Source of the DNA: a virus
Length of the DNA stretch: 31,432 bases
IMG/VR virus record: IMGVR_UViG_3300010885_011782
Coordinates: 1 to 31,432 of that record
Strand: one strand, 5' to 3'
Below, piece by piece: positions 213-30,979 of this stretch. Made by a program: the position numbers and the translations under genes. Position 1 is the stretch's first letter. Every line of letters begins with the position of its first letter. The notes under the pieces were generated by a model. The model searched no databases and had not been told where the DNA came from. It worked only from the letters and a program-made list of their open reading frames with translations.

Positions 213-220
213 CATAAATA
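213..220 (+). promoter_or_regulatory. T4-type late promoter motif (CATAAATA)
   Basis: CATAAATA matches 7 of 8 positions of the T4 late promoter element TATAAATA. It lies 18 bases upstream of the ATG of the structural gene at 239, with no sigma70-like -35 box. It is one of several such motifs placed directly ahead of virion or lysis genes in this window, which supports the call. It would depend on the phage late sigma factor and sliding clamp if it works as in T4. Confidence 0.55.
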
Positions 221-238
221 CATAAAGAGAGCGCAAAC

Positions 239-1024
239 ATGGCAATTAAAACAATCAATATTGGGCAGTACGCAAACGACGGATCTGGCGATGACCTACG
301 TAGTGCATTTACAAAAATTAATTATAATTTTGCGCTTTTAGGCACAGATATCCCTGTTGCAGAAGCAACAAATTTAGCAACACGTACTATTACTGTAACT
401 AATTCAAGTAAAACAGGTAGCGGTCCTTTTAATGTAACATTTACATTTAACCCTCTAACTGTTGCTCCAACTGTGAATCAGTACTACTATATCACAGGCT
501 GTGCGAATACTGCATACAATGGTCATTTTTATTGCACCGGTAGTAATACTGTAAGCATTACATTTACCTATCCAACAGATCCGGGCGTGTTTGCATTAAC
601 TACTCCGGTGTTAATTAGTAACAGTCTTGGTATTTTTAATAATAAAAATACAAATATATTAGAATTTAACAGTATTAAGAGTAGCGATAACAGTATTAAT
701 ATCGTTCCCGGAACTGACGGCACAATCGATTTAAAAAGCGGACTAGGTGTAGTTAACGATACTGCTCCTAGATTAGGCGGAGACTTATTATTGAACGGGC
801 ACGTTATTCGTGGAGACAATAATACAGGAGATGTCCAAGCTACTGTCTACGGTGTAAAGGTCGATGTATTAAATGCAATAGTTGGTTTATTATTACAAAA
901 TACTATATTCACCATTGACATGGGAAGGGTCGTTGGGAATTATACTACAATTAATTTAGACATGAGTTATATTAATTCGCCAATTTCAAATGGATTAGAT
1001 TTTGGTCGATTATCGTCAGTATAA
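239..1024 (+). CDS. Tail-fibre/baseplate-type structural protein
   Basis: A 261-residue protein. Its N-terminus (residues 4-33) carries the pattern INIGxxANDGxGDDLRxAFxKINxNF, which recurs at the start of tail-fibre-like virion proteins of T4-like aquatic phages and probably serves as an attachment or trimerisation segment. The middle is Thr/Asn/Ser-rich and beta-prone. Near residues 178-196 it has DTAPRLGGDLLLNGHVI, a motif common in phage fibre proteins. The start is the ATG directly after a purine-rich leader and a late-type promoter. It belongs to a run with the peroxidase-containing protein and the gene at 5330. Which part of the virion it occupies is inference. Confidence 0.7.
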   Translation: MAIKTINIGQYANDGSGDDLRSAFTKINYNFALLGTDIPVAEATNLATRTITVTNSSKTGSGPFNVTFTFNPLTVAPTVNQYYYITGCANTAYNGHFYCTGSNTVSITFTYPTDPGVFALTTPVLISNSLGIFNNKNTNILEFNSIKSSDNSINIVPGTDGTIDLKSGLGVVNDTAPRLGGDLLLNGHVIRGDNNTGDVQATVYGVKVDVLNAIVGLLLQNTIFTIDMGRVVGNYTTINLDMSYINSPISNGLDFGRLSSV

Positions 1025-1046
1025 TCCAAGCATAACGGATCAATAA

Positions 1047-4000
1047 ATGCTTAATATTTGGACACAGCCGTCAGGATACACTTGGTCAACTAATCAATTT
1101 GGATTTGATAATGGTGCAACCTATTTCGATCAACAACATACAATATTTGATGTTGGCCCTATTGTGGAGCGAATTAGTGTATTGTTACCATTACCTGTTG
1201 TTTTACCTACCGTAATTCCAACAACTGCAAATGCAGTACCATACGACGGTACTGGGCATCATCCTACTGCGCCTTTACGTAACAGTGCAGGATCTCCTTT
1301 CCTCCGATACCCTATAAACAGTTATATAGATAATGTATATGCTATGCGTACTGATTTGCCTAATGCACGTACAGTAAGTAATTTAGTAGTATGGGACCGC
1401 ATCAACGGCGGCGAACAATTTGATCCTTCTGGATACAGTGGATTCATGTATGCATGGGGACAATTTATAACACACGAACTAGAATTTGCTCGCGGCGGCA
1501 CTGTCGATATTAGCGTAACTGTTCCAAGCGACGATACAAATTTAACGCCCGGCAGTCGCATACCAGTTACCCGTAGTGCTGTTGTTTTTAATACTGGAGT
1601 TAATAACGTATTAGCAAATTTTATAAATGACACAACAGGCTGGATTGACGGAACTGTTATCTACGGTTTAGCATATCCTCCAGGAGTTCAACAAGGCTCA
1701 ACGGTGTTTCAGAATCCAGTTAATTTACGAGAAGGTGGAAGAAATGCCACTACTGGTAAATTGTTAACTTCGGGCAGTGGATTGTATGCTCCCGTTGATC
1801 CTGCTACAGGTATGTTTATTTTCGGAGACCCTAGAGGAACAGAAAATCCAGATCTAGCATCCGTACAAACTTTAATGATTCGAGAACATAACTGGCATGT
1901 TGCAAGATTAACTTTGCAAAACCCGGGTTGGAGTGGTGAACAATTATATCAACGTGCCCGTGCATTAGTGATTGCAGAAGAACAAATTATTACATACAAT
2001 GAATGGGTTTCAAAAGTAGTTGGAGCCGGTGCGATTCCGCCGTATACTGGATTTAAATCTAATATAGATGCTACTATAAGAATAGAATTTGCGGCAGCTG
2101 CCATGCGATTTGGGCATAGTATTGTGTCCGGCGCACAAGATAGAATAGACGAACAAGGTAATATTACTGAATCATTAACTTTGGGTCAAGCGTTCTTTTT
2201 AACACCTGCACAATTTGAACGTAATGGCGGCGCTGACGGATTTTTACGTAAGTTAGGTGCAGATATTTCAAACAAATTAGATGTATACATTATTGAAGAT
2301 TTACGTAATTTATTAAATGATCCACCGGCCGCATTAGATTTAGCAACTACTAATATCCAACGTGGGCGTGATTTAGGATTACCTAGCTTAAATCAAATGA
2401 GACAAATATTAGGGTTATCCGCGTATACAAGTTTTGAACAAATAACCACAGACGTTACCATTGCAAACGGATTAAGAGCGGCATACACTAACATAAACGA
2501 TATCGATTTATGGGTAGGAGGTCTGGCGGAAAATCGTGTTAACGGTGCAATGGTTGGGCCTACATTCCGTGCTATTATGATCGATCAGTTTACAAAATTG
2601 CGTGATGGCGATTCGCTATGGTGGGAAAATAAATTATGGAGTCCTGAAGATTTACAATGGATTAAAGGTACTACATTATCTGACATAATTTTACGCAATA
2701 CTAATACCCAGGCCATGCAAGCAGATGCATTTGTAGCCGTAGAAAGAGCAGATCTTTATAACGGAACTGTTCCAACTATATCAGCTAGAACATATCCTTC
2801 TGCATTAGGCGTTCCACCTGCACCAACTAACCCAATAACATTCTCAATAATCTCTGGTGCATTACCTCCAGGATTGGCGGTTGTTGGCAATACCATAAAA
2901 GGTATACCATACGGAGTTGTACGAGATACTACATACACATTTTGTATACGTGCTAGCGACGGGAAAGACATTGCTGACAGAACATTTAAGATTAAAGTTG
3001 CCACCGGTGGGCCGCCGGAATGGCAAACGGCTGGAGGATTATTACCAGTAGGTACAAATAATCAAAGGTACATACTAAACAATAGTTTTATTAATTATTC
3101 AATAGTTGCTAAAGATTTAGATAATCTGCCAGTTACATACTATATTGCCAGCGGTGATGGCGATCTTCCGCCCGGTGTAACATTAACTCCAACCGGTACA
3201 TTAACTGGATTTGTAAATCCAGTATTGGCTATAACACAAGCTGTAACTGGCGTCGGAGCATTTGACCAAGATTTATATGATAGTGGTTTTTATGATTTTG
3301 CTAGCAGACCTACTAACGGTTATGATTCATACATATATGATCAGCAAACTTTTGATTTTAGTACTCCAACATTGCCGCCAAAAAGTATTAATCAAAGATA
3401 CGAATTTATTGTTACTGCGGTATCAGGTAACAAAATAACTAAAAGAATGTTTGGTATTTTTGTGGTAAGTCCTGAATTATTAACTGCGGACGATGCGGCT
3501 ATTTCCGATGATACCACAGTATTCACCGCAGACGTTACACCACTTGAAGCACCGTTATTTGTTAATGATAGAAATTTAGGTATTGTTAGAGCCAATAATT
3601 ATATCACTCTTGAAATTAGCACATTTACAAGTAGTACAACTGTTAATCCCACTTTTAGTATTTTAAACTCTGCTCCCGCATGGATTGCATTTACGCAGTA
3701 TACGATCGATACCGCTGTTACATATTTTGGATCAATTTATATATGTACTACTGCTCATAAATCATCCGGTACCTTTAATGCAATAATTAACAATATCACG
3801 TATTGGGTTAAACAAGCGTTGCCTCCCGGGTTGGCATTTTCTCCGGTAGGATCGATTGTATACTTGGCAGGATTTATTCCCTTCCAAACTAATATTAGTA
3901 AAACATACACCTTCACTATACTTGGAACTAGAGTTGGCGAAGATGTTCAACCAGCAGTTACTAAAAAAGTGTTTACAGTAACAGTTATTGGAGAAATTAA

Positions 4001-5333
4001 TAATACTATTTCGTGGATCACCGGGCCTAACTTAGGTGAGATTCCAGCAAACTATAATAGTAATTTAAATGTACAAGCTACTGCTCAAGATTCAAGTGTG
4101 ATATTAATTTATAGTTTAGCAAGCCAACCATCAGAAATTGGACTACCTCCGGGATTAAGTCTAGATGTCACTGGAGAAATTACTGGAAAAGTTAATCAAT
4201 TTGGTGTTGCAAATATTTCAAGAATAACTACTTTTGAAAACGGTAATTGGTATTTGGATAGGCATTTTACCACAATTGACGTTAACCATCAATATGACAT
4301 TATTGGAAAAAGAGGTTTAATATTATTTGATCAAGACACAGGTTTTAATATTGACCGTGGTACTACTACATTTGATAGGATTTATAAATTTACAATTCAA
4401 GTAACTGACCAGTACGGGTATGCTATAAGCAAGCAACAATTCCAATTAAAAGTAAGTACTCCTAATCAGATATTGTACTCTAATATTAGAACACAACCAT
4501 ATTTAAAACCTACGCAACGTAGTTTATGGACTACATTTATTAACGATCCTACTATATTTTCAATTAACAGTATATATAGACCAGCTGATCCAAATTTTGG
4601 AACCAGAACAGATTTAGGTATGCTGGTATATGCTGGTATTGAAACCAAACAAGCGGCGGCTTATGTTGGGGCGATGGGGTTAAACCACAAAAATAAAAGA
4701 TTCCGTTTTGGATCTATAAAAAAAGCTGTGGCTAAAATAAACAATATAACTGCTTACGAAGTAATTTACGTAGAAATGATGGACCCATTAGAAGCTAACG
4801 GAAATGCGTTGCCAAATACTATCAAGTATAATACATCGCGCAGTTTAAAAACTACAGCAGATATTAGTAACGCCATATTAGTCGGCGCTGTAGGGAATAA
4901 CATTGCCGAGCTTGATGCTAATATTGCAACCATGAATCTTGCAGAATCTTGGTTAGACCGCCCTATTGATAATGTTACTGTAGATAGTAATGCGTTTCAC
5001 GTAAGTGACACAACTACGAACACATTCTACCCTAGCAGTATTACCAATTGGCAACGCAATATTGAAAACGTAGGCTTGGCAGAACGTAACTATTTGCCCG
5101 TTTGGATGCGTACAATCCAGCCAGGCGAAAAACAACAACTAGGATTTAAATTGGCTGTTCCGCTATGTTACTGTAAACCAGGCACAGCTGACAGCATAAT
5201 TTTAAACATAAAACACAGCGGTTTTGACTTTAGAACACTGGATTATACAGTGGACCGCTACATAATAGATTCTGTGGACGGATATTCAAACGATAAATAT
5301 CTAGTGTTCAGAAACGATAGGATAACCGTATGA
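1047..5333 (+). CDS. Giant virion-type protein with animal haem peroxidase domain and He_PIG-like repeats
   Basis: 1428 residues. Residues of about 65-580 match the animal haem peroxidase family (myeloperoxidase/peroxidasin type). Visible hallmarks are the distal-histidine motif WGQFITHELEF with H143, the catalytic GDPRGTENPDL segment with R263 and E266, the REHN helix after it, the proximal-histidine motif RFGHSIV with H357, and NIQRGRDLGLPS with N436. The Asp that forms a haem ester in mammalian enzymes is Thr here (T142), so covalent haem attachment at that point is not expected. About four putative Ig/cadherin-like (He_PIG) modules follow, with LPPGL cores near residues 606, 705, 924 and 1030, then a unique C-terminus. 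No signal peptide is visible. It sits between fibre-like genes and overlaps the next one by 4 bases, so it is probably a virion component. The peroxidase call is strong. Enzymatic activity, and how haem would be acquired, are unknown. Confidence 0.88.
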   Translation: MLNIWTQPSGYTWSTNQFGFDNGATYFDQQHTIFDVGPIVERISVLLPLPVVLPTVIPTTANAVPYDGTGHHPTAPLRNSAGSPFLRYPINSYIDNVYAMRTDLPNARTVSNLVVWDRINGGEQFDPSGYSGFMYAWGQFITHELEFARGGTVDISVTVPSDDTNLTPGSRIPVTRSAVVFNTGVNNVLANFINDTTGWIDGTVIYGLAYPPGVQQGSTVFQNPVNLREGGRNATTGKLLTSGSGLYAPVDPATGMFIFGDPRGTENPDLASVQTLMIREHNWHVARLTLQNPGWSGEQLYQRARALVIAEEQIITYNEWVSKVVGAGAIPPYTGFKSNIDATIRIEFAAAAMRFGHSIVSGAQDRIDEQGNITESLTLGQAFFLTPAQFERNGGADGFLRKLGADISNKLDVYIIEDLRNLLNDPPAALDLATTNIQRGRDLGLPSLNQMRQILGLSAYTSFEQITTDVTIANGLRAAYTNINDIDLWVGGLAENRVNGAMVGPTFRAIMIDQFTKLRDGDSLWWENKLWSPEDLQWIKGTTLSDIILRNTNTQAMQADAFVAVERADLYNGTVPTISARTYPSALGVPPAPTNPITFSIISGALPPGLAVVGNTIKGIPYGVVRDTTYTFCIRASDGKDIADRTFKIKVATGGPPEWQTAGGLLPVGTNNQRYILNNSFINYSIVAKDLDNLPVTYYIASGDGDLPPGVTLTPTGTLTGFVNPVLAITQAVTGVGAFDQDLYDSGFYDFASRPTNGYDSYIYDQQTFDFSTPTLPPKSINQRYEFIVTAVSGNKITKRMFGIFVVSPELLTADDAAISDDTTVFTADVTPLEAPLFVNDRNLGIVRANNYITLEISTFTSSTTVNPTFSILNSAPAWIAFTQYTIDTAVTYFGSIYICTTAHKSSGTFNAIINNITYWVKQALPPGLAFSPVGSIVYLAGFIPFQTNISKTYTFTILGTRVGEDVQPAVTKKVFTVTVIGEINNTISWITGPNLGEIPANYNSNLNVQATAQDSSVILIYSLASQPSEIGLPPGLSLDVTGEITGKVNQFGVANISRITTFENGNWYLDRHFTTIDVNHQYDIIGKRGLILFDQDTGFNIDRGTTTFDRIYKFTIQVTDQYGYAISKQQFQLKVSTPNQILYSNIRTQPYLKPTQRSLWTTFINDPTIFSINSIYRPADPNFGTRTDLGMLVYAGIETKQAAAYVGAMGLNHKNKRFRFGSIKKAVAKINNITAYEVIYVEMMDPLEANGNALPNTIKYNTSRSLKTTADISNAILVGAVGNNIAELDANIATMNLAESWLDRPIDNVTVDSNAFHVSDTTTNTFYPSSITNWQRNIENVGLAERNYLPVWMRTIQPGEKQQLGFKLAVPLCYCKPGTADSIILNIKHSGFDFRTLDYTVDRYIIDSVDGYSNDKYLVFRNDRITV

Positions 5334-6649
5334 CAAACCCAACATCAAGTTTAATTAATTTTGGCTCAATTGACGCCACTTACCCTGTTGCAGGGCAAGA
5401 TAATAATAGCCAAGGATTTAGAGATAATTTCGGAGCTATCAAATCAGGTCTAGGACAAGCTAGTACTGAGATCACTGCTTTGCAACAAAATTCCGCATTT
5501 TTAAATGCTAGTAATAATTTTGGTGGAAACACAATTACTAATGCAATTTTTAATCAATTTTACGGAACGTTTACATCGCTAGGTACAGTTAGTACTAATC
5601 AAGACATTAATTTACAAATAGGCCCTGTACAATCGGTATACCTATCAAATAATGTTACATTAACATTTAGAAATTGGCCAGCAAGCGGTTCTTATGGCAT
5701 GGTTCGAGTTTTTGTATTCAGCGATGGTAGCGGAGTTCGTCAACCAGCTTTTGCAACTGCCGCAGGCACAACTCTTAGATACGATACAGCCTTTCCAACA
5801 TTACCTAATTCAGTAACACCTGGAATTGTAGTGGGCGGAGAAAAAGTATCTAGCGTTACAGTATCAAATCCAGGTTCTGGTTATACAAGTGGTGTAGCTG
5901 TTGGATTTAGTGGCGGTAGTCAACAGGCAACTGGATCAACTGCAACTGCAACTGCAAATTATAAAGTTGTTAGTGCAACAGTTATCGGTGGATACCCTGG
6001 AAATGCTTATGCTGTTAACGACACTATTACAATTAATGCCAACACCAATGTGGTATTAAGCGTTTCAAGTTTAAATTTAACATTTACCGCAAATACAACG
6101 AACGGTAATGCATCGTTAACTAATATTTCAAATATATTAAATTTAGGAGCTGGCGTTGCAGTCAGTGGAACTGGTATTCCAGCTAACGTAGAAGTTAGTT
6201 CTGCAGGAGTACAAGGTTCAGTAGGTAGTTACTATATTAATTTAGTATCTGGCGCTGACCATACTACCCCAGTAAACTGTACAGCTACTAATACTGCAAC
6301 CACAGTAACTTATGTAAGTTCAACTGGACCTATCGGTACATTAACTGTTACTAACGGCGGAACATTTAGTTCTCCTATCGTCGGGTCTTATGATACTAGT
6401 GCTATTATTGGAGTAGGTTACGGTGCTCGTTTAGTACTAAGTTTTGGTATTAATGTTGTTACTGTTACATACGGTGGCAATGGTTATACAGCAACTCCGG
6501 CGGTTACATTCACAGGTGGCGGCGGCACAAATACTGTAGCAAGTGCTTCAATTACCACAGGCACTACTAATAATCCAAAAGTTATCGAAGCATCTAGTTA
6601 CGACGGCGGTACTACTGTCTACATGCGTTTTATCGGCGAGTATGATTAA
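5330..6649 (+). CDS. Tail-fibre-like structural protein with Gly-rich beta repeats
   Basis: 439 residues, starting at an ATGA overlap with the peroxidase gene. The N-terminal 70 residues (NxxxxLINFGSIDATYPV, then a helix with FRDNF) are typical of virion proteins in T4-like aquatic phages and resemble in layout the N-terminus of the protein at 239. The remainder is Ser/Thr/Gly-rich and low in charge. It has repeats built around GSGYT/GNGYT followed by a short beta strand and a Gly-rich stretch (near residues 183-210 and 380-415). Such repeats are common in fibre tips and adhesins. Close coupling to the upstream gene suggests the two products are made together, perhaps as parts of one appendage. 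The receptor, if it binds one, is unknown. Confidence 0.7.
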   Translation: MTNPTSSLINFGSIDATYPVAGQDNNSQGFRDNFGAIKSGLGQASTEITALQQNSAFLNASNNFGGNTITNAIFNQFYGTFTSLGTVSTNQDINLQIGPVQSVYLSNNVTLTFRNWPASGSYGMVRVFVFSDGSGVRQPAFATAAGTTLRYDTAFPTLPNSVTPGIVVGGEKVSSVTVSNPGSGYTSGVAVGFSGGSQQATGSTATATANYKVVSATVIGGYPGNAYAVNDTITINANTNVVLSVSSLNLTFTANTTNGNASLTNISNILNLGAGVAVSGTGIPANVEVSSAGVQGSVGSYYINLVSGADHTTPVNCTATNTATTVTYVSSTGPIGTLTVTNGGTFSSPIVGSYDTSAIIGVGYGARLVLSFGINVVTVTYGGNGYTATPAVTFTGGGGTNTVASASITTGTTNNPKVIEASSYDGGTTVYMRFIGEYD

Positions 6650-6889: not shown

Positions 6890-7402
6890 ATGCGCCTAGA
6901 CAAGTATTCCAATCCTGTATTCAACGAACAAGATCTTTTTGATTCCTTATATAAAGGTTATCAATTTTTAGTATCAGATACATTAATAGTTGAAAATCGT
7001 TCGGAAAATATCACACACTTAGAAGCACAACTTGGTTTTAAATTCTTAGAACCGTATGAAACTCATTACGAAATCAACGATTACGATCTAGCTTGCCAAT
7101 CTAATTGGAACATGCCTGATGAGTACAAAACATTAGATATTGAAGCATGGATCTGGGAACAAACTCCGCCTTGGGATCCCCAACATACTAGGGTATCCGA
7201 AGAATTGGCGGCTTTTAAAGAACGCAACATGATAGATTTATTACGTTGGTTAAAGTATTTTGTCGACACTTGTAGAGCTAACAACATAGTATGGGGTGTA
7301 GGCAGAGGTTCAAGTGTGGCCAGCTATATATTGTATTTGATAGGTGTACACAAAATTGACAGTATACAATATAATTTAGACTGGCAGGAATTCCTGAGAT
7401 AA
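6890..7402 (+). CDS. Stand-alone fragment resembling DNA polymerase III alpha subunit (DnaE)
   Basis: 170 residues. The last 65 or so align well by eye with the start of the DnaE palm. A helix (WLKYFVDTCRANNI) leads into GVGRGSSVASYILYLIG, matching the GPGRGSGAGSLVAYALG nucleotide-binding loop of bacterial PolIII. Then comes SIQYNLDWQEFL, matching DPLxFDLLFERFL. The frame stops exactly where DnaE continues with the catalytic Asp motif PDFDxD, so none of the three catalytic aspartates is present. The first 100 residues are unfamiliar. It therefore cannot be a polymerase by itself. It could be a trimmed relic, a nucleotide-binding regulator, or a decoy subunit. It is flanked by small genes and precedes a GroES-like gene. 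Homology is fairly confident; function is unknown. Confidence 0.65.
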   Translation: MRLDKYSNPVFNEQDLFDSLYKGYQFLVSDTLIVENRSENITHLEAQLGFKFLEPYETHYEINDYDLACQSNWNMPDEYKTLDIEAWIWEQTPPWDPQHTRVSEELAAFKERNMIDLLRWLKYFVDTCRANNIVWGVGRGSSVASYILYLIGVHKIDSIQYNLDWQEFLR

Positions 7403-7429: not shown

Positions 7430-7648
7430 ATGGCAAATAACACAACAAGACAAGTATATCGAACCATGCAAGGCAAGGAAATCGATATGGGCAAACTTAT
7501 TGCTCAAAATGAAATGAGTGTTGCTGTCGGCAATATGAAAGTAAATGCTCGCGGTGATCAATTAGGCGCCGGTGGGCAAATTATTAAGACCAGAGAACAA
7601 CTTGCCGCAGAACGGGAAAAATCGAACGATTCAACAGGTGGCGTATGA
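7430..7648 (+). CDS. Small conserved phage protein of unknown function
   Basis: 72 residues preceded by a strong AAGGAG ribosome-binding site 8 bases before the ATG. It has the pattern YRTMQGKEIDMGKLIAQNE followed by VGNMKVNARGDQLGAGGQI. To my knowledge this is a conserved family in T4-like phages of marine bacteria, with no assigned activity. It is basic to neutral, without membrane segments or cysteines. It overlaps the GroES-like gene by 4 bases (ATGA), and the tight linkage suggests coordinated expression with the co-chaperonin. Confidence 0.65.
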   Translation: MANNTTRQVYRTMQGKEIDMGKLIAQNEMSVAVGNMKVNARGDQLGAGGQIIKTREQLAAEREKSNDSTGGV

Positions 7649-19682: not shown

Positions 19683-20903
19683 GTGTTACTCCGTGAATTA
19701 TTCCTTAAGGAAAATCAAGCAGGGCCGCATCCTACAACAGGTATAGCACTAGGCCGTGCTTTCAACCACCCGGAGCATTTTATTATATTCTACGGATTGT
19801 CTGGTATTAAGGAAGGCATACAGCATTTAGAAGATGCTGTTGGAGAAGACAAACAATTAAGGTTTAAATGGGACGGCAATCCTCAAATTTATTGGGGACG
19901 TGAAAAGAAGAACGGCCCATTAATTCTAGCAGGACATAACGGTTGGGCAAAAGGTGGTCGCGGTAATGGTACTACAATGGATGATTTTACTAGTCCTGCG
20001 GCTGTAGAGAATTTTATTCTTCATAAGAGTGGTGAAGGCGCCAAAGGAGAAGAAATAACTTCAGAGCGTCAACGATTTGCCAGCGAGTTTAGTAACCTAT
20101 ATCCTATTTTTGATGCGGCAACTCCTAAAGATTTTGTAGGATTTGTTTATGCCGATGCATTGTTCTTGCCTAGTACAAAACCAACAGCGCAGAATGGAAT
20201 TTATACTATGCATCCTAACCCGCATAGTAAATCAGAATACCATGTAGATGCAAACGGTACAGGGCCGTTGAATTTAGGCAAACGTATTCCTCGAGCACAA
20301 GCAATGGTTGTAGCACATGGAACATTTAAAACATTTGGTGCGCCAGATAACGAGCAACTACCAGTAGACGATTTTAGCAAATTTGATAAAAGTCCCGGTT
20401 TAATTGTAGTAAGTCCAATATACAATAATGAAAAACCTGATGTGGACATGACTAGCATTAACCAAGTTAAAGAAGTAGGTGGTTATATTGACCAGCACGG
20501 AGATAACATTCAAAACTTTGTAACACATATTCCTACCGGCGATAGACAAGGATTCTTTTATAAATTTTTGAACCAACGTAATTCAGCAAACGACTTTGAT
20601 ACAATTACGCCACAAATGTTTTATAACTGGATGGCACAACCTAACAAAGATGGTAAACCGCAAGTTAGCCTTAATAAACAACAAGATATTAAAAATACAG
20701 ATTTAAAATTCAATGCGTTAGCGCCTATGTTTCACTTGATGAAAATCATGCGTCATGCGCGACATGCTATCAATGATAGTGTAAATAGTAAACACAAGCC
20801 AGAATGTTGGGCAACTAATCCCGAAGGATTTGTACGGTATGCAGATCCAAAGAAATTCCAACACGGCCATGTTAAATTTCAAAATGCGGGGTGGAAAGAT
20901 TGA
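19683..20903 (+). CDS. Possible ligase-like nucleotidyltransferase with capsid-targeting-like N-terminus
   Basis: 406 residues from a GTG start 2 bases after the previous stop. The N-terminus MLLRELFLKE-NQAG again fits a T4-type capsid-targeting sequence with an LKE cleavage site. Residues of about 58-71 read LRFKWDGNPQIYWGRE, resembling the KxDG adenylation motif of DNA/RNA ligases. Later GFVYADALF (about 154) and EGFVRYADPKKF with HVKF near the end (about 380-400) could correspond to motifs III, IV and V. A phage family with a KWDG core is known to me only as an uncharacterised group. Assignment as an active ligase is uncertain because spacing and motif V are not canonical. If packaged, it would be an enzyme injected with the genome. 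Confidence 0.5.
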   Translation: MLLRELFLKENQAGPHPTTGIALGRAFNHPEHFIIFYGLSGIKEGIQHLEDAVGEDKQLRFKWDGNPQIYWGREKKNGPLILAGHNGWAKGGRGNGTTMDDFTSPAAVENFILHKSGEGAKGEEITSERQRFASEFSNLYPIFDAATPKDFVGFVYADALFLPSTKPTAQNGIYTMHPNPHSKSEYHVDANGTGPLNLGKRIPRAQAMVVAHGTFKTFGAPDNEQLPVDDFSKFDKSPGLIVVSPIYNNEKPDVDMTSINQVKEVGGYIDQHGDNIQNFVTHIPTGDRQGFFYKFLNQRNSANDFDTITPQMFYNWMAQPNKDGKPQVSLNKQQDIKNTDLKFNALAPMFHLMKIMRHARHAINDSVNSKHKPECWATNPEGFVRYADPKKFQHGHVKFQNAGWKD

Positions 20904-22390
20904 GTCAAGTAGCAATTATATTCGGGCGTTTTAATCCGCCACATAAAGGACATAAAGTTGCATGGAAACGTGCGGCTACTATTCCACATTGGTTTGTAGG
21001 CACTAACGAGTCAACAGTTGGTCCTACTGATCCATTGCCGTTTAATATTAAAGAAAAAGCAATGTTGGCAATATATCCCGAACTCAAAGGACATTTGATC
21101 ACACAGCAAAGTTGGTTTACCATGGCATCCGCTATATTTGAACGTTACGGCGATGTTGAATTAATTTGTGTAACAGATGAGGCATGGGTAGTTCCAGGTT
21201 TGCAAAAAGCCAACGGTAGAGAAGATCGTCACGGATACTATAAATTTTCTAACATTAGATTATTTCACAAGGATGTTGGAGCCGCAAAAGCAGACATGCG
21301 TAAAGGCAAAGCAAGCGATTTACGTGCTGCCGCATTAGCCGGCGATAGAGAAGCATTTACAAATGCCGCTGGCATATCGTCAGAAACTATGGTTGCCGGG
21401 CATCCATATTTTGATTTAGTAGTACATTATTTAAAACCATACGGTGCAAAAGCTGAAAAAGCAAATGCAAAGAAACTTGCGACCGCAGAACCAGTAAATA
21501 CAGTAGAACCACAGGAACCAGTTATGAAACAAGGACCAGCAAAAACAGAAGTAGCAGAATCAATGCACCGACGTGATGCGTATCAACGCGATGAATATAG
21601 TGCTCACCAAGGCTTTGGCCGAGCGCACAAAGAGTGGGACGAAGGTAACACTGAGCCGCCAAATAATTTTGCTATTCATATTAACGGCAAGAAGTGGAAA
21701 GTATTACCAGGCCATGGAACTTACGCAGATGATCACCGTGAACAAAAACAACATCGTCAATTACAAGATATGTGTGCTAAGAAGACAGCTTCTACAGGTA
21801 AAAAATGGACTGTTCATCCCACTGGTGAACAAGCAACTGTTGAAAGTGTAGCAGAAAGTAAAACTGTAAAAGCAGAAGCTCCTAAACCTCGTAACTTTGT
21901 TGCCAAGAATGCCATTAATACAGGTGCAGGCGCACATAAAGACAAAAAGAAAGCTGCCAAACAAGGCGATGTTAAACACAAAAAACAATTGGAATTTGCA
22001 GAAGGACGATTAGGGTCTAGTTTAAATTCAATGTTTGAAGAAAAGTTTCGTGCTAAATTAAAAGAAGCTGTGCTACGTGCTGATACGGCAAGTTCAATGC
22101 CTAACTTACGTATCCATCCAGATTTAGATAACTCTAGTCCATATAAAGCATACCGATACGGTGTTGCTATGGCAAGCCAACCCCGTGGTCCTGCTGACGA
22201 AAAAGGCCCGTTTGGTCAAAAGATGATTACTATAGGTTACACAGAAGCAGATAATGAAATTATACGTGCAACTGATAAAAAAATGCATTCTAAAAGTCAA
22301 GCTATGTCAGATGGTAAAAGTAAAGAATTAGATGATACCCATACAATTAGCCCAATTGCAAAACCTAAACGTAACCAATACGGTGTATAA
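20891..22390 (+). CDS. HxGH-type nucleotidyltransferase fused to head-protein-like modules
   Basis: 499 residues. Residues 7-170 look like the cytidylyl/adenylyl transferase superfamily: VAIIFGRFNPPHKGHKVAW with H18-K-G-H21, and ISSETMV (about 162) near where ISSTxIR is expected. NMN adenylyltransferase and related enzymes have this fold; the substrate is unknown. From about 200 the protein is charged and linker-like, with a module HINGKKWKVLPGHGTYADD (about 258) and the Lys-rich AHKDKKKAAKQGDVKHKK (about 345). The last 90 residues form a domain shared with the protein at 22704 (ending SPIAKPKRNQYGV). The start is ambiguous: GTG at 20891 or TTG at 20900, which overlaps the upstream stop. The fusion suggests a packaged enzyme. 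Confidence 0.6.
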   Translation: MERLSQVAIIFGRFNPPHKGHKVAWKRAATIPHWFVGTNESTVGPTDPLPFNIKEKAMLAIYPELKGHLITQQSWFTMASAIFERYGDVELICVTDEAWVVPGLQKANGREDRHGYYKFSNIRLFHKDVGAAKADMRKGKASDLRAAALAGDREAFTNAAGISSETMVAGHPYFDLVVHYLKPYGAKAEKANAKKLATAEPVNTVEPQEPVMKQGPAKTEVAESMHRRDAYQRDEYSAHQGFGRAHKEWDEGNTEPPNNFAIHINGKKWKVLPGHGTYADDHREQKQHRQLQDMCAKKTASTGKKWTVHPTGEQATVESVAESKTVKAEAPKPRNFVAKNAINTGAGAHKDKKKAAKQGDVKHKKQLEFAEGRLGSSLNSMFEEKFRAKLKEAVLRADTASSMPNLRIHPDLDNSSPYKAYRYGVAMASQPRGPADEKGPFGQKMITIGYTEADNEIIRATDKKMHSKSQAMSDGKSKELDDTHTISPIAKPKRNQYGV

Positions 22391-28312: not shown

Positions 28313-30979
28313 ATGAGCTATGTAGACGCATGGTTTGACCGCGATAATGACGTTATCAAAGTGGTCGAACGCAACAAGAAAGGTGAAAGGGAATTTAGAG
28401 ATATTCCTGTACGCCACACATTTTACTATTCAGATCCCCGCGGTAAGTATCAAAGCATTTACGGCGATCCTCTTGGCAAGATTGTAGTTAAAAGTACCAA
28501 AGAACTACGCAAAGAACAAGCCATACACAGCAATCAAAAGTTATTTGAAAGCGACATTAATCCAATCTTTTCGTGCCTAAGCGAAAACTATCTTAACGCA
28601 GATGCTCCAAAACTACATGCGGCATTTTTCGATATTGAGGTAGACTTCGATCCAGAGCGTGGCTATGCTAGCCCAGACGATGCATTTATGCCCATCACTG
28701 CGATTGCAGTTTACCTACAGTGGATGGAAACTATGATATGCTTGGCCATTCCTCCAAAGGGTGTTAAGATGGAGGATGCCAAGGAAATGGTTAAAGACTT
28801 TCCTAATACATACTTGTTTGAAAAAGAAGGAGAACTGTTAGACATGTTCTTAGACTTGATCAAAGATGCAGATGTATTAAGTGGTTGGAACAGCGAAGGT
28901 TTCGACGTACCGTACACAACTAACCGTATTACTAAAGTATTAAGCAAAGAAGATACCCGTCGGTTCTGTTTGTTTGATCAATTGCCAAAGAAACGTGAAT
29001 ATGAAAAGTTTGGTCGGCTTGCCACAACATATGACTTTATAGGCCGTGTACATTTGGATTATCTTGAACTGTATCGTAAGTACACATATGAAGAACGACA
29101 TTCATATAGGCTGGATGCTATTGCTGAATATGAATTAGGTGAGCGCAAGACACAGTATGAAGGCACATTGGATCAGTTATACAACAATGATTTCAGAACA
29201 TTTGTTGAATATAACATTAACGACTGTATGCTATTGGAAAAACTAGACAAGAAACTTAAATTCTTAGATCTCGCCAATACACTGGCACATGAAAACACAG
29301 TATTGCTACAAACTACGATGGGTGCTGTAGCTGTAACTGAACAGGCTATTATCAACGAAGCACATCGTAGAGGTTTCCAAGTTCCTAATCGTACTAAGAT
29401 GGACGATAGAGAAAGCAGTGCGGCCGCTGGTGCGTATGTTGCTTATCCCAAAGAAGGCATTCATGACTGGATCGGTTCATTAGACATTAACAGTCTATAT
29501 CCAAGTGCCATTAGAGCACTTAACATGGGCCCCGAGACTATCATTGGACAGTTACGACAAACAATGACTGATGAATATATCGAAAATAAGATGGCCAAGG
29601 GTTCTAGTTTTGCAGCCGCTTGGAAAGGTATGTTTGGCAGTATAGAGTACACAACCGTGATGAATCAAGAGATTGGAACTGAAATTACTATCGACTGGGA
29701 AAATGGTGATAGCGATGTGCTAAGTGCGGCTGAAGTGTATAAGCTGATATTTGACAGTCATCAGCCGTGGATGTTAAGTGCTAACGGCACAATTTTCACT
29801 TATGAAAAAGAAGGTATTATTCCTGGACTGTTAAAGCGTTGGTATGCTGAACGTAAAGAGATGCAGGCCAAACTCAAAGAGTGTATTAAAACAGGTAATA
29901 AAATTGAAGAAGAATACTGGGACAAGCGACAGCTCGTCAAAAAGATTAACCTTAATAGTTTGTATGGTGCCATTCTTAACAGCGGTTGTAGGTTTTTTGA
30001 TAAGCGTATTGGGCAGTCGACTACACTAACAGGTCGACAAATTGTTAAACATATGGCAGGTAAGGTCAATGAGATTGTAACCGGAGAGTATGATTATCGT
30101 GGTAAGGCAATTATCTATGGTGATACAGACTCCTGTTATTTTTCAGCATTTAAGACACTACAAAAAGATATTGACAATGGCAATATCGAATGGTCTAAAG
30201 AAAATGTAATTGCACTGTATGATAACATCGGCGAAGAAGTTAATACTACCTTCCCGCAGTTCATGTTGGATACATTCCATTGTCCAAAGACACGTGGGGA
30301 AGTTATCAAAGCAGGTCGAGAAATTGTTGGAAGTAAAAGTTTGTTTATTACTAAGAAGCGTTACGCCGTGTTGTACTACGACAAAGAAGGCAAACGTGCA
30401 GACGTAGATGGTAAGCCAGGTAAGATCAAGGCCATGGGCTTGGATCTAAAGCGTAGTGATACTCCAGAATTTATTCAAAACTTTTTAAGTGATGTACTTG
30501 AAATGGTACTGATGGGTAAGCCTGAACAAGAAGTTTTAGATGCAATCAGTGAATTCCGTCTAAGATTTAAAACTAGACCTGGATGGGAGAAAGGTTCTCC
30601 TAAACGTGCAAACAAGGTTACAGAATATCAAGCCAAAGAGGCCAAAGCTGGTAAGGCCAATATGCCGGGACATGTCCGTGCAAGTATTAATTGGAATACC
30701 TTAAAACGTATGTTCGATGACAAGTATAGCATGAACATTACAGACGGTGCTAAAGTTATTGTTTGCAAATTGAAAACTAATCCGCTTGGATTTACTAGCG
30801 TTGCATATCCAGTAGACGAATTGCGTTTGCCACAATGGTTTAAAGACTTGCCATTTGATCACGCAGAAATGGAACAGACTATTATCGATAACAAGTTGGA
30901 TAACTTGATTGGCGTACTAAACTGGGACGTTCGTAGTACAGAAGAAAAGAATACTTTTAATAATTTATTTGAGTTCTAA
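28313..30979 (+). CDS. 43: Replicative DNA polymerase, family B (gp43-like)
   Basis: 888 residues, near T4 gp43 (898). The proofreading exonuclease is complete: FDIEVDF (D107, E109), LSGWNSEGFDVPY and EYNINDCML. The polymerase has motif A SLDINSLYPS (D391), motif B KKINLNSLYGA (about 543-553), motif C YGDTDS (D604, D606), and TKKRYAV after it. All catalytic aspartates are therefore present. The C-terminus ends FNNLFEF, with aromatic residues such as are used for sliding-clamp contact in T4-like polymerases. It should work with the clamp loader encoded at 8504. A structured leader and strong AGGAG site precede it. A nucleotide-sugar dehydrogenase begins 1 base after its stop codon. Confidence 0.97.
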   Translation: MSYVDAWFDRDNDVIKVVERNKKGEREFRDIPVRHTFYYSDPRGKYQSIYGDPLGKIVVKSTKELRKEQAIHSNQKLFESDINPIFSCLSENYLNADAPKLHAAFFDIEVDFDPERGYASPDDAFMPITAIAVYLQWMETMICLAIPPKGVKMEDAKEMVKDFPNTYLFEKEGELLDMFLDLIKDADVLSGWNSEGFDVPYTTNRITKVLSKEDTRRFCLFDQLPKKREYEKFGRLATTYDFIGRVHLDYLELYRKYTYEERHSYRLDAIAEYELGERKTQYEGTLDQLYNNDFRTFVEYNINDCMLLEKLDKKLKFLDLANTLAHENTVLLQTTMGAVAVTEQAIINEAHRRGFQVPNRTKMDDRESSAAAGAYVAYPKEGIHDWIGSLDINSLYPSAIRALNMGPETIIGQLRQTMTDEYIENKMAKGSSFAAAWKGMFGSIEYTTVMNQEIGTEITIDWENGDSDVLSAAEVYKLIFDSHQPWMLSANGTIFTYEKEGIIPGLLKRWYAERKEMQAKLKECIKTGNKIEEEYWDKRQLVKKINLNSLYGAILNSGCRFFDKRIGQSTTLTGRQIVKHMAGKVNEIVTGEYDYRGKAIIYGDTDSCYFSAFKTLQKDIDNGNIEWSKENVIALYDNIGEEVNTTFPQFMLDTFHCPKTRGEVIKAGREIVGSKSLFITKKRYAVLYYDKEGKRADVDGKPGKIKAMGLDLKRSDTPEFIQNFLSDVLEMVLMGKPEQEVLDAISEFRLRFKTRPGWEKGSPKRANKVTEYQAKEAKAGKANMPGHVRASINWNTLKRMFDDKYSMNITDGAKVIVCKLKTNPLGFTSVAYPVDELRLPQWFKDLPFDHAEMEQTIIDNKLDNLIGVLNWDVRSTEEKNTFNNLFEF

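Follow-up and report, generated by a model that had tools for sequence, protein, structure and literature searches.

The well-known enzymes of phage tails act on polymers, which they cleave hydrolytically or by lysis. Among the described haem peroxidases closest to the one considered here, CyanoPOX from Cyanobacterium sp. TDX16 (PDB 8s6c) has a haem site lined by His81, Arg199, Glu202, His294, Asn376 and Arg379, and a Ca2+ site whose ligands are Asp82, Thr140, Trp142, Asp144 and Ser146 (PMC11776367). The Dictyostelium enzyme PoxA (DdPoxA; PDB 6erc) illustrates that the Asp forming one of the haem esters is not required across the superfamily: it lacks this Asp, has Ile at the position and forms exactly one ester, to Glu236, yet it oxidizes iodide and thiocyanate at >1e8 M-1 s-1 and helps to keep Dictyostelium fruiting bodies free of bacteria (PMC5787809). 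Here we analyse a gene for a predicted virion protein with an immunoglobulin (Ig)-like scaffold and an inserted peroxidase of this type, found in IMG/VR virus record IMGVR_UViG_3300010885_011782 (positions 1 to 31,432; this whole stretch of 31,432 nucleotides is called the window). The gene occupies window positions 1047 to 5333 on the plus strand, as do all features of the window protein given below, and is a single uninterrupted frame of 1,428 codons, from ATG to stop, encoding a protein of 1,428 residues as judged from the open reading frame (ORF) call, Pfam and orthologues.

The original prediction, made from this DNA alone, had proposed a complete animal-type haem peroxidase domain with H143, R263, E266, H357 and N436 as active-site residues, and had suggested a profile search and a structure prediction as checks; both bear it out. 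The An_peroxidase family (PF03098) matches residues 66–562 (1242–2732) over profile positions 4–530 of 530, with E 1.3e-109, and the best sequence matches among PDB structures are CyanoPOX 8s6c (E 9e-75) and Dictyostelium PoxA 6erc (E 4e-62). An AlphaFold2 (AF2) model of residues 61–573, built with 71 relatives, has a mean predicted local distance difference test score (pLDDT) of 94.7 and a predicted template modelling (TM) score of 0.94; it replaced an earlier model of residues 1–690 (14 phage sequences; pLDDT 36), which was set aside. The domain model resembles 8s6c with a Foldseek TM score of 0.92 and superposes on it with a VIA Z of 50.0 and a root-mean-square deviation of 1.8 Å over 492 residues; Z is 40–45 for DdPoxA, MPO and LPO. 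Assignment to the prostaglandin synthase/alpha-dioxygenase (COX) branch was rejected (Z 30–34 vs 50; identity about 20%).

The residues of the predicted active site are likewise in place. In an alignment of 16 phage and 55 bacterial domains, Q139, H143, R263, E266, R354, H357 and R439 are invariant, and N436 is found in 16/16 phage and 53/55 bacterial copies. The distal side comprises Q139, T142, the catalytic H143 and the Ca ligand E144 (1461–1478), followed by the predicted distal Ca2+ loop T197-G-W199-I-D201-G-T203 (1635–1655), the catalytic R263 with the haem-ester residue E266 (1833–1844), R354 with the proximal H357 (2106–2117), and N436 with R439 (2352–2363), which complete a proximal His-Asn-Arg triad as in DdPoxA (PMC5787809). 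Those residues of CyanoPOX that line the haem site correspond, in the order given above, to H143, R263, E266, H357, N436 and R439, and its Ca ligands correspond to E144, T197, W199, D201 and T203, positions kept across the phage copies as E/D144, T197, W199, D201 and T/S203. All five residues of the original prediction are aligned with catalytic ones in both 8s6c and DdPoxA. The phage domain therefore has the features by which the superfamily is recognized, namely a whole-length profile match, the fold, the distal Gln-His and Arg, the proximal His-Asn-Arg and the Ca2+-site residues, and it is most likely a complete and catalytically competent haem peroxidase, as predicted from its modelled fold and conserved active site.

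The substitution of the ester Asp by Thr, also pointed out in the original prediction, is fixed: position 142 is Thr in 16/16 phage domains and Asp in 55/55 bacterial domains, so that this feature of the chordate-type (family 1) enzymes is absent. The putative Glu ester residue of the superfamily is present as E266 in 16/16 phage copies. Non-covalent haem, which had been suggested on the strength of T142, is consequently one option and not the sole one, since E266 is invariant and DdPoxA has a single Glu ester. Nor need the loss of the Asp mean loss of function, because DdPoxA, with Ile there and a single Glu ester, is active. The alignment shows no Cys in the phage peroxidase domain, and E. 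coli yields CyanoPOX that is folded and haem-loaded (PMC11776367); for both reasons haem loading in the bacterial cytoplasm appears feasible.

The peroxidase is carried as a cassette. Residues 1–55 ('MLNIWTQPSGYTW...ERISVLLPLP'; 1047–1211) form an N-terminal arm and the first strand of a putative split Ig-like domain, as recognized from alleles that have no peroxidase (L036–L038), in which the arm continues directly into '...GVTFTVISGSLPPG'. In the window about 540 residues separate 'ERISVLLPLP' from 'ITFSIISGALPPG', and the cassette comprises about residues 56–595 (1212–2831). Its junction was placed by BLASTN and by the sequences of the empty alleles: window positions 215–1196 and 2850–3640 align to positions 585–1552 and 1586–2376 of L038, where they are 33 nt apart, leaving the DNA between 1197 and 2849 as extra in the window. 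The remainder of the first Ig-like domain and further He_PIG Ig-like repeats follow at 2832–4598 (PF05345; three stretches, E 2.4e-7). Ig-like repeats after the domain had been predicted and are present, but the splitting of the Ig domain, which is read from sequence comparison, places the peroxidase inside the first repeat, as an optional element inserted at one and the same point in all the phages. A search with the C-terminal domain of the protein gave hundreds of relatives, and among 72 loci examined 64 were complete genes without peroxidase (many of them near-copies of one another) and 5 had it, counts that are not frequencies because the search samples nearest relatives.

Two further optional inserts were observed in the scaffold. 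A small CBM_5_12-like module, below the Pfam cut-off, lies in the later Ig region (3678–3770) and is missing from the nearest empty allele, L036. A domain of about 75 residues ('VNSGNFIVGYQYVIQTVGTTDFTKIGA') lies in the N-terminal region near the Ig-1 site in many peroxidase-free relatives (L082, L185–L202). When about 64 further relatives were checked for additional large inserts at the Ig-1 site, only the peroxidase and this N-terminal domain stood out.

The cassette has recently been gained or lost between near-identical phages. Locus L004 and loci L091/L096 share 99.2% identity across the 7.9 kb preceding the cassette and 99.35% across the 9.9 kb that follow it, and differ at the cassette site itself (1.77 kb vs 0.17 kb); beyond the first 100 residues after the insert, 792/796 residues are identical. 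Such natural pairs are near-isogenic, which makes the function of the cassette directly askable. In one set of carriers (L014/L015/L018) the synonymous divergence (dS) of the peroxidase is 0.11–0.29 and the flanks are saturated, and in another (L009/L010) the reverse holds; the module is therefore exchanged among backbones through recombination and independently of them. It is also under purifying selection, the ratio of non-synonymous to synonymous divergence (dN/dS) in diverged pairs being 0.05–0.18 (one near-identical pair gives an uninformative ratio), and it usually exceeds the other parts of the protein in conservation (68–82% vs 38–52% for most Ig regions). Four contigs from several samples (L022–L025) all start at the same peroxidase codon, a shared assembly break inside the recombining module.

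The scaffold points to the virion. Its C-terminal virion domain (4599–5330) is conserved in peroxidase-free phages and in one protein of each of two cultured phages, Sinorhizobium phage Phosso and Agrobacterium phage Atu_ph07, to which the DNA polymerase of the window is closest (46–50%). A peroxidase-free relative matches the same single protein in each, annotated as a serine proteinase. These syntenic orthologues (Atu_ph07, L179:9241–12996; Phosso, L180:8977–12840) have the same Ig scaffold, with He_PIG repeats and the same C-terminal domain, and a subtilisin-like protease domain (Peptidase_S8, PF00082; E 1.4e-36 and 2.1e-36). The order scaffold gene, next gene, clamp loader, PhoH, Clp ATPase, DNA polymerase is common to the window group, Phosso and Atu_ph07, and the N-terminal arm, He_PIG repeats and C-terminal domain of the Rak2/Atu_ph07-like jumbo phages are all found in the window protein. 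By CDS count from gp276 as numbered in the paper, a count that gp288, gp312 and gp327 also fit, the Atu_ph07 orthologue is gp329. The report of Attai et al. (PMC6102473) places the Atu_ph07 virion proteins detected by electrospray ionization tandem mass spectrometry mostly in CDS 31–76, 170–215 and 284–329; gp329 would close the last of these clusters, and its own presence among the detected proteins is presumed from that boundary. Fibre-like flanking genes had been predicted, and the upstream neighbour (239–1024, plus strand) has an N-terminus that weakly matches a baseplate wedge/tail fibre connector (phrog_677, E 1e-6); longer relatives have tail-fibre genes with strong PHROG matches upstream of the peroxidase gene. 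The downstream neighbour (5330–6649, plus strand) overlaps the stop of the peroxidase gene, and its N-terminus is homologous to the gene following the subtilisin version in Phosso and Atu_ph07. By analogy with these phages, the window protein is probably a tail-associated virion protein, in keeping with the tail-region structural role that had been proposed for it. The scaffold appears from these comparisons to accept different enzymes: peroxidase here, subtilisin in the rhizobial phages and, in most relatives, none at all. When the Atu_ph07 S8 domain was used to look for subtilisin versions from freshwater, Atu_ph07 itself was the sole match, and PF00082 matches in three genomes (G001, G004, G006) are separate ORFs of 526–531 residues, far from the scaffold gene.

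Two scans of IMG/VR found the peroxidase domain in 29 distinct contigs (67–100% identity), and chance or contamination was rejected, synteny being kept in many contigs and several backbone types. The carriers are uncultured, giant-phage-like viruses known from metagenomes. The domain has no match among GenBank phages (INPHARED), no PHROG family matches it, and no named phage protein in BFVD does so, the best named viral matches there being from Orpheovirus and Yasminevirus; a literature search, with thin coverage of subscription papers and preprints, turned up no haem peroxidase of a phage. Neither the fold nor the family is new; the novelty lies in the setting, a haem enzyme carried exchangeably by a phage tail scaffold. 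The finding is real, conserved and selected, and undescribed as far as the collections examined show. The nearest cellular relatives are secreted-type RTX peroxidases, mostly of 40–48% identity (L111–L178), many from freshwater Mycobacterium and Synechococcus and others from Bradyrhizobium and Acetobacteraceae. The phage copies fall into a single clade (support 100/100) nested among these bacterial proteins, with Synechococcus lacustris L122 as sister (97/75). A Pfam search found no C-terminal RTX export repeats in the window protein; they are present in the bacterial relatives, and RTX export may have been replaced by carriage on the virion scaffold.

We hypothesize that the gene product is an active, exchangeable peroxidase displayed on the tail of a Rak2/Atu_ph07-like jumbo myophage, where it oxidizes the host envelope or the surroundings, and we consider this reading somewhat favoured by the evidence as a whole. 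That the protein holds haem, is active and is part of virions is inferred, as are where it acts and on what. The peroxidase would pick up haem in the host cytoplasm and be assembled, haem-loaded, into the tail region of the particle, where the split Ig domain would display it away from the axis, as for the binding domains of RTX adhesins (PMC12077191). At the next host it would use H2O2 on small donors (iodide, thiocyanate, phenols, humics) or surface polymers, and the oxidation would alter the envelope or the extracellular matrix around the adsorption site. Two points weigh against this reading: the absence of the Asp ester predicts, by analogy with DdPoxA, a lower redox potential, which makes strong halogenation (Cl, Br) unlikely, and the Atu_ph07 enzyme is a subtilisin that lies N-terminal to the scaffold, whereas the peroxidase of the window lies inside Ig domain 1. 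A more far-reaching version, in which this is the first virion-displayed haem enzyme, in a slot swapped between peroxidase, subtilisin and nothing, with a phage superoxide dismutase (SOD) feeding it H2O2 and the host surface attacked or remodelled by oxidation, is put forward only tentatively.

The SOD in question is an Fe/Mn enzyme with a D-x-W-x-H ligand motif, encoded 15–18.5 kb upstream of the scaffold gene (G001:C1:213516–213791 [L253 18698–19258, minus strand], and also in G002, G003, G007, G008, G013, G019, G021 and G024). All peroxidase-positive contigs that extend so far carry it (6/6), vs 3/9 peroxidase-free ones (Fisher p 0.028, uncorrected for relatedness). SOD makes H2O2, and for this reason the two enzymes may cooperate; the link is only suggestive, because other jumbo phages, PA5oct among them, also encode SOD. 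Where inspected, the SOD gene adjoins a giant tail-fibre gene.

The peroxidase, with the SOD, could instead have a protective role, detoxification of peroxide having been among the three functions first offered. With SOD in the same genomes there would be a path from superoxide through H2O2 to water, and phenolic or humic donors would act as reductants, so that the peroxidase might mainly clear H2O2 from the vicinity of the particle or from the infected cell and shield the virion or the burst. We regard this as rather unlikely: fusion to a tail Ig scaffold and the existence of a subtilisin-bearing orthologue fit an external target better than bulk detoxification, bulk peroxide would be beyond a few copies per particle, and inside the cell a free cytosolic enzyme would suffice. 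More doubtful still is a haem-loaded receptor-binding module, an adhesin docking on a haem or peroxidase receptor or on matrix with catalysis secondary, even though RTX adhesins have ligand-binding domains that emerge from split Ig domains (PMC12077191) and the presence/absence polymorphism and allele swapping resemble those of tropism genes; Q139, H143, R263 and the Ca loop show little or no variation, a degree of conservation that mere haem binding would not need, and the variable part is not the active-site side. Because the distal catalytic residues are invariant, a haem adhesin without catalysis is the least likely of the three functions first offered. Cytoplasmic synthesis and the lack of any export signal seen would suit an enzyme that acts inside the cell before assembly, for instance on host redox defence, and is merely stored by the structural parts, but this is very improbable given that scaffold and C-terminal domain are kept in peroxidase-free phages and map to the virion cluster, and that the bacterial relatives are secreted-type RTX proteins. 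Inert decoration or a passing acquisition without a selected enzymatic role, for which one might cite the many relatives that lack the peroxidase, is scarcely credible against the low dN/dS, the fully conserved active site and its presence in 29 contigs.

Elsewhere in the window, a short DNA-polymerase-like protein (6890–7402; phrog_11127, E 6e-38) is encoded at a distance from the main polymerase (28313–30979), a small protein at 7645–8058 matches phage head-morphogenesis and GroES co-chaperonin families (phrog_931, phrog_3188), and a 499-residue protein at 20891–22390 has a cytidyltransferase-like N-terminus and a DUF7230-like patch.

Set against known systems, the phage protein combines features that are otherwise found apart. 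It resembles Atu_ph07 gp329 and the Phosso S8 protein in the C-terminal domain, the Ig repeats and the position beside the same next gene, and their presence in cultured phages makes the role of the scaffold testable in the laboratory. Bacterial RTX peroxidases differ in being stand-alone proteins with C-terminal RTX repeats, an Asp-His-Asp distal motif and no Ig scaffold. CyanoPOX (8s6c; PMC11776367) shares the fold and the catalytic and Ca ligands and is likewise of bacterial type, but is a free, non-viral enzyme of about 35% identity that has the ester Asp80 where the phage has Thr. DdPoxA (6erc; PMC5787809) similarly has no ester Asp, Ile taking its place, and retains the Glu ester residue, but is a secreted, glycosylated eukaryotic protein of about 30% identity. 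The Orpheovirus haem peroxidase A0A2I2L5A1 is also virus-encoded and shares this fold (Foldseek E 2e-35, 22% identity), but it is distant, belongs to a giant virus of amoebae and shows no Ig scaffold. In RTX adhesins a functional domain buds, as here, from an Ig-like domain split in two, but these proteins are bacterial and carry binding domains and no redox enzyme (PMC12077191). If our hypothesis is correct, a tail haem peroxidase would be a redox route to the host surface, an oxidative counterpart of the tail depolymerases and a phage counterpart to the chemistry of MPO, LPO and DdPoxA.

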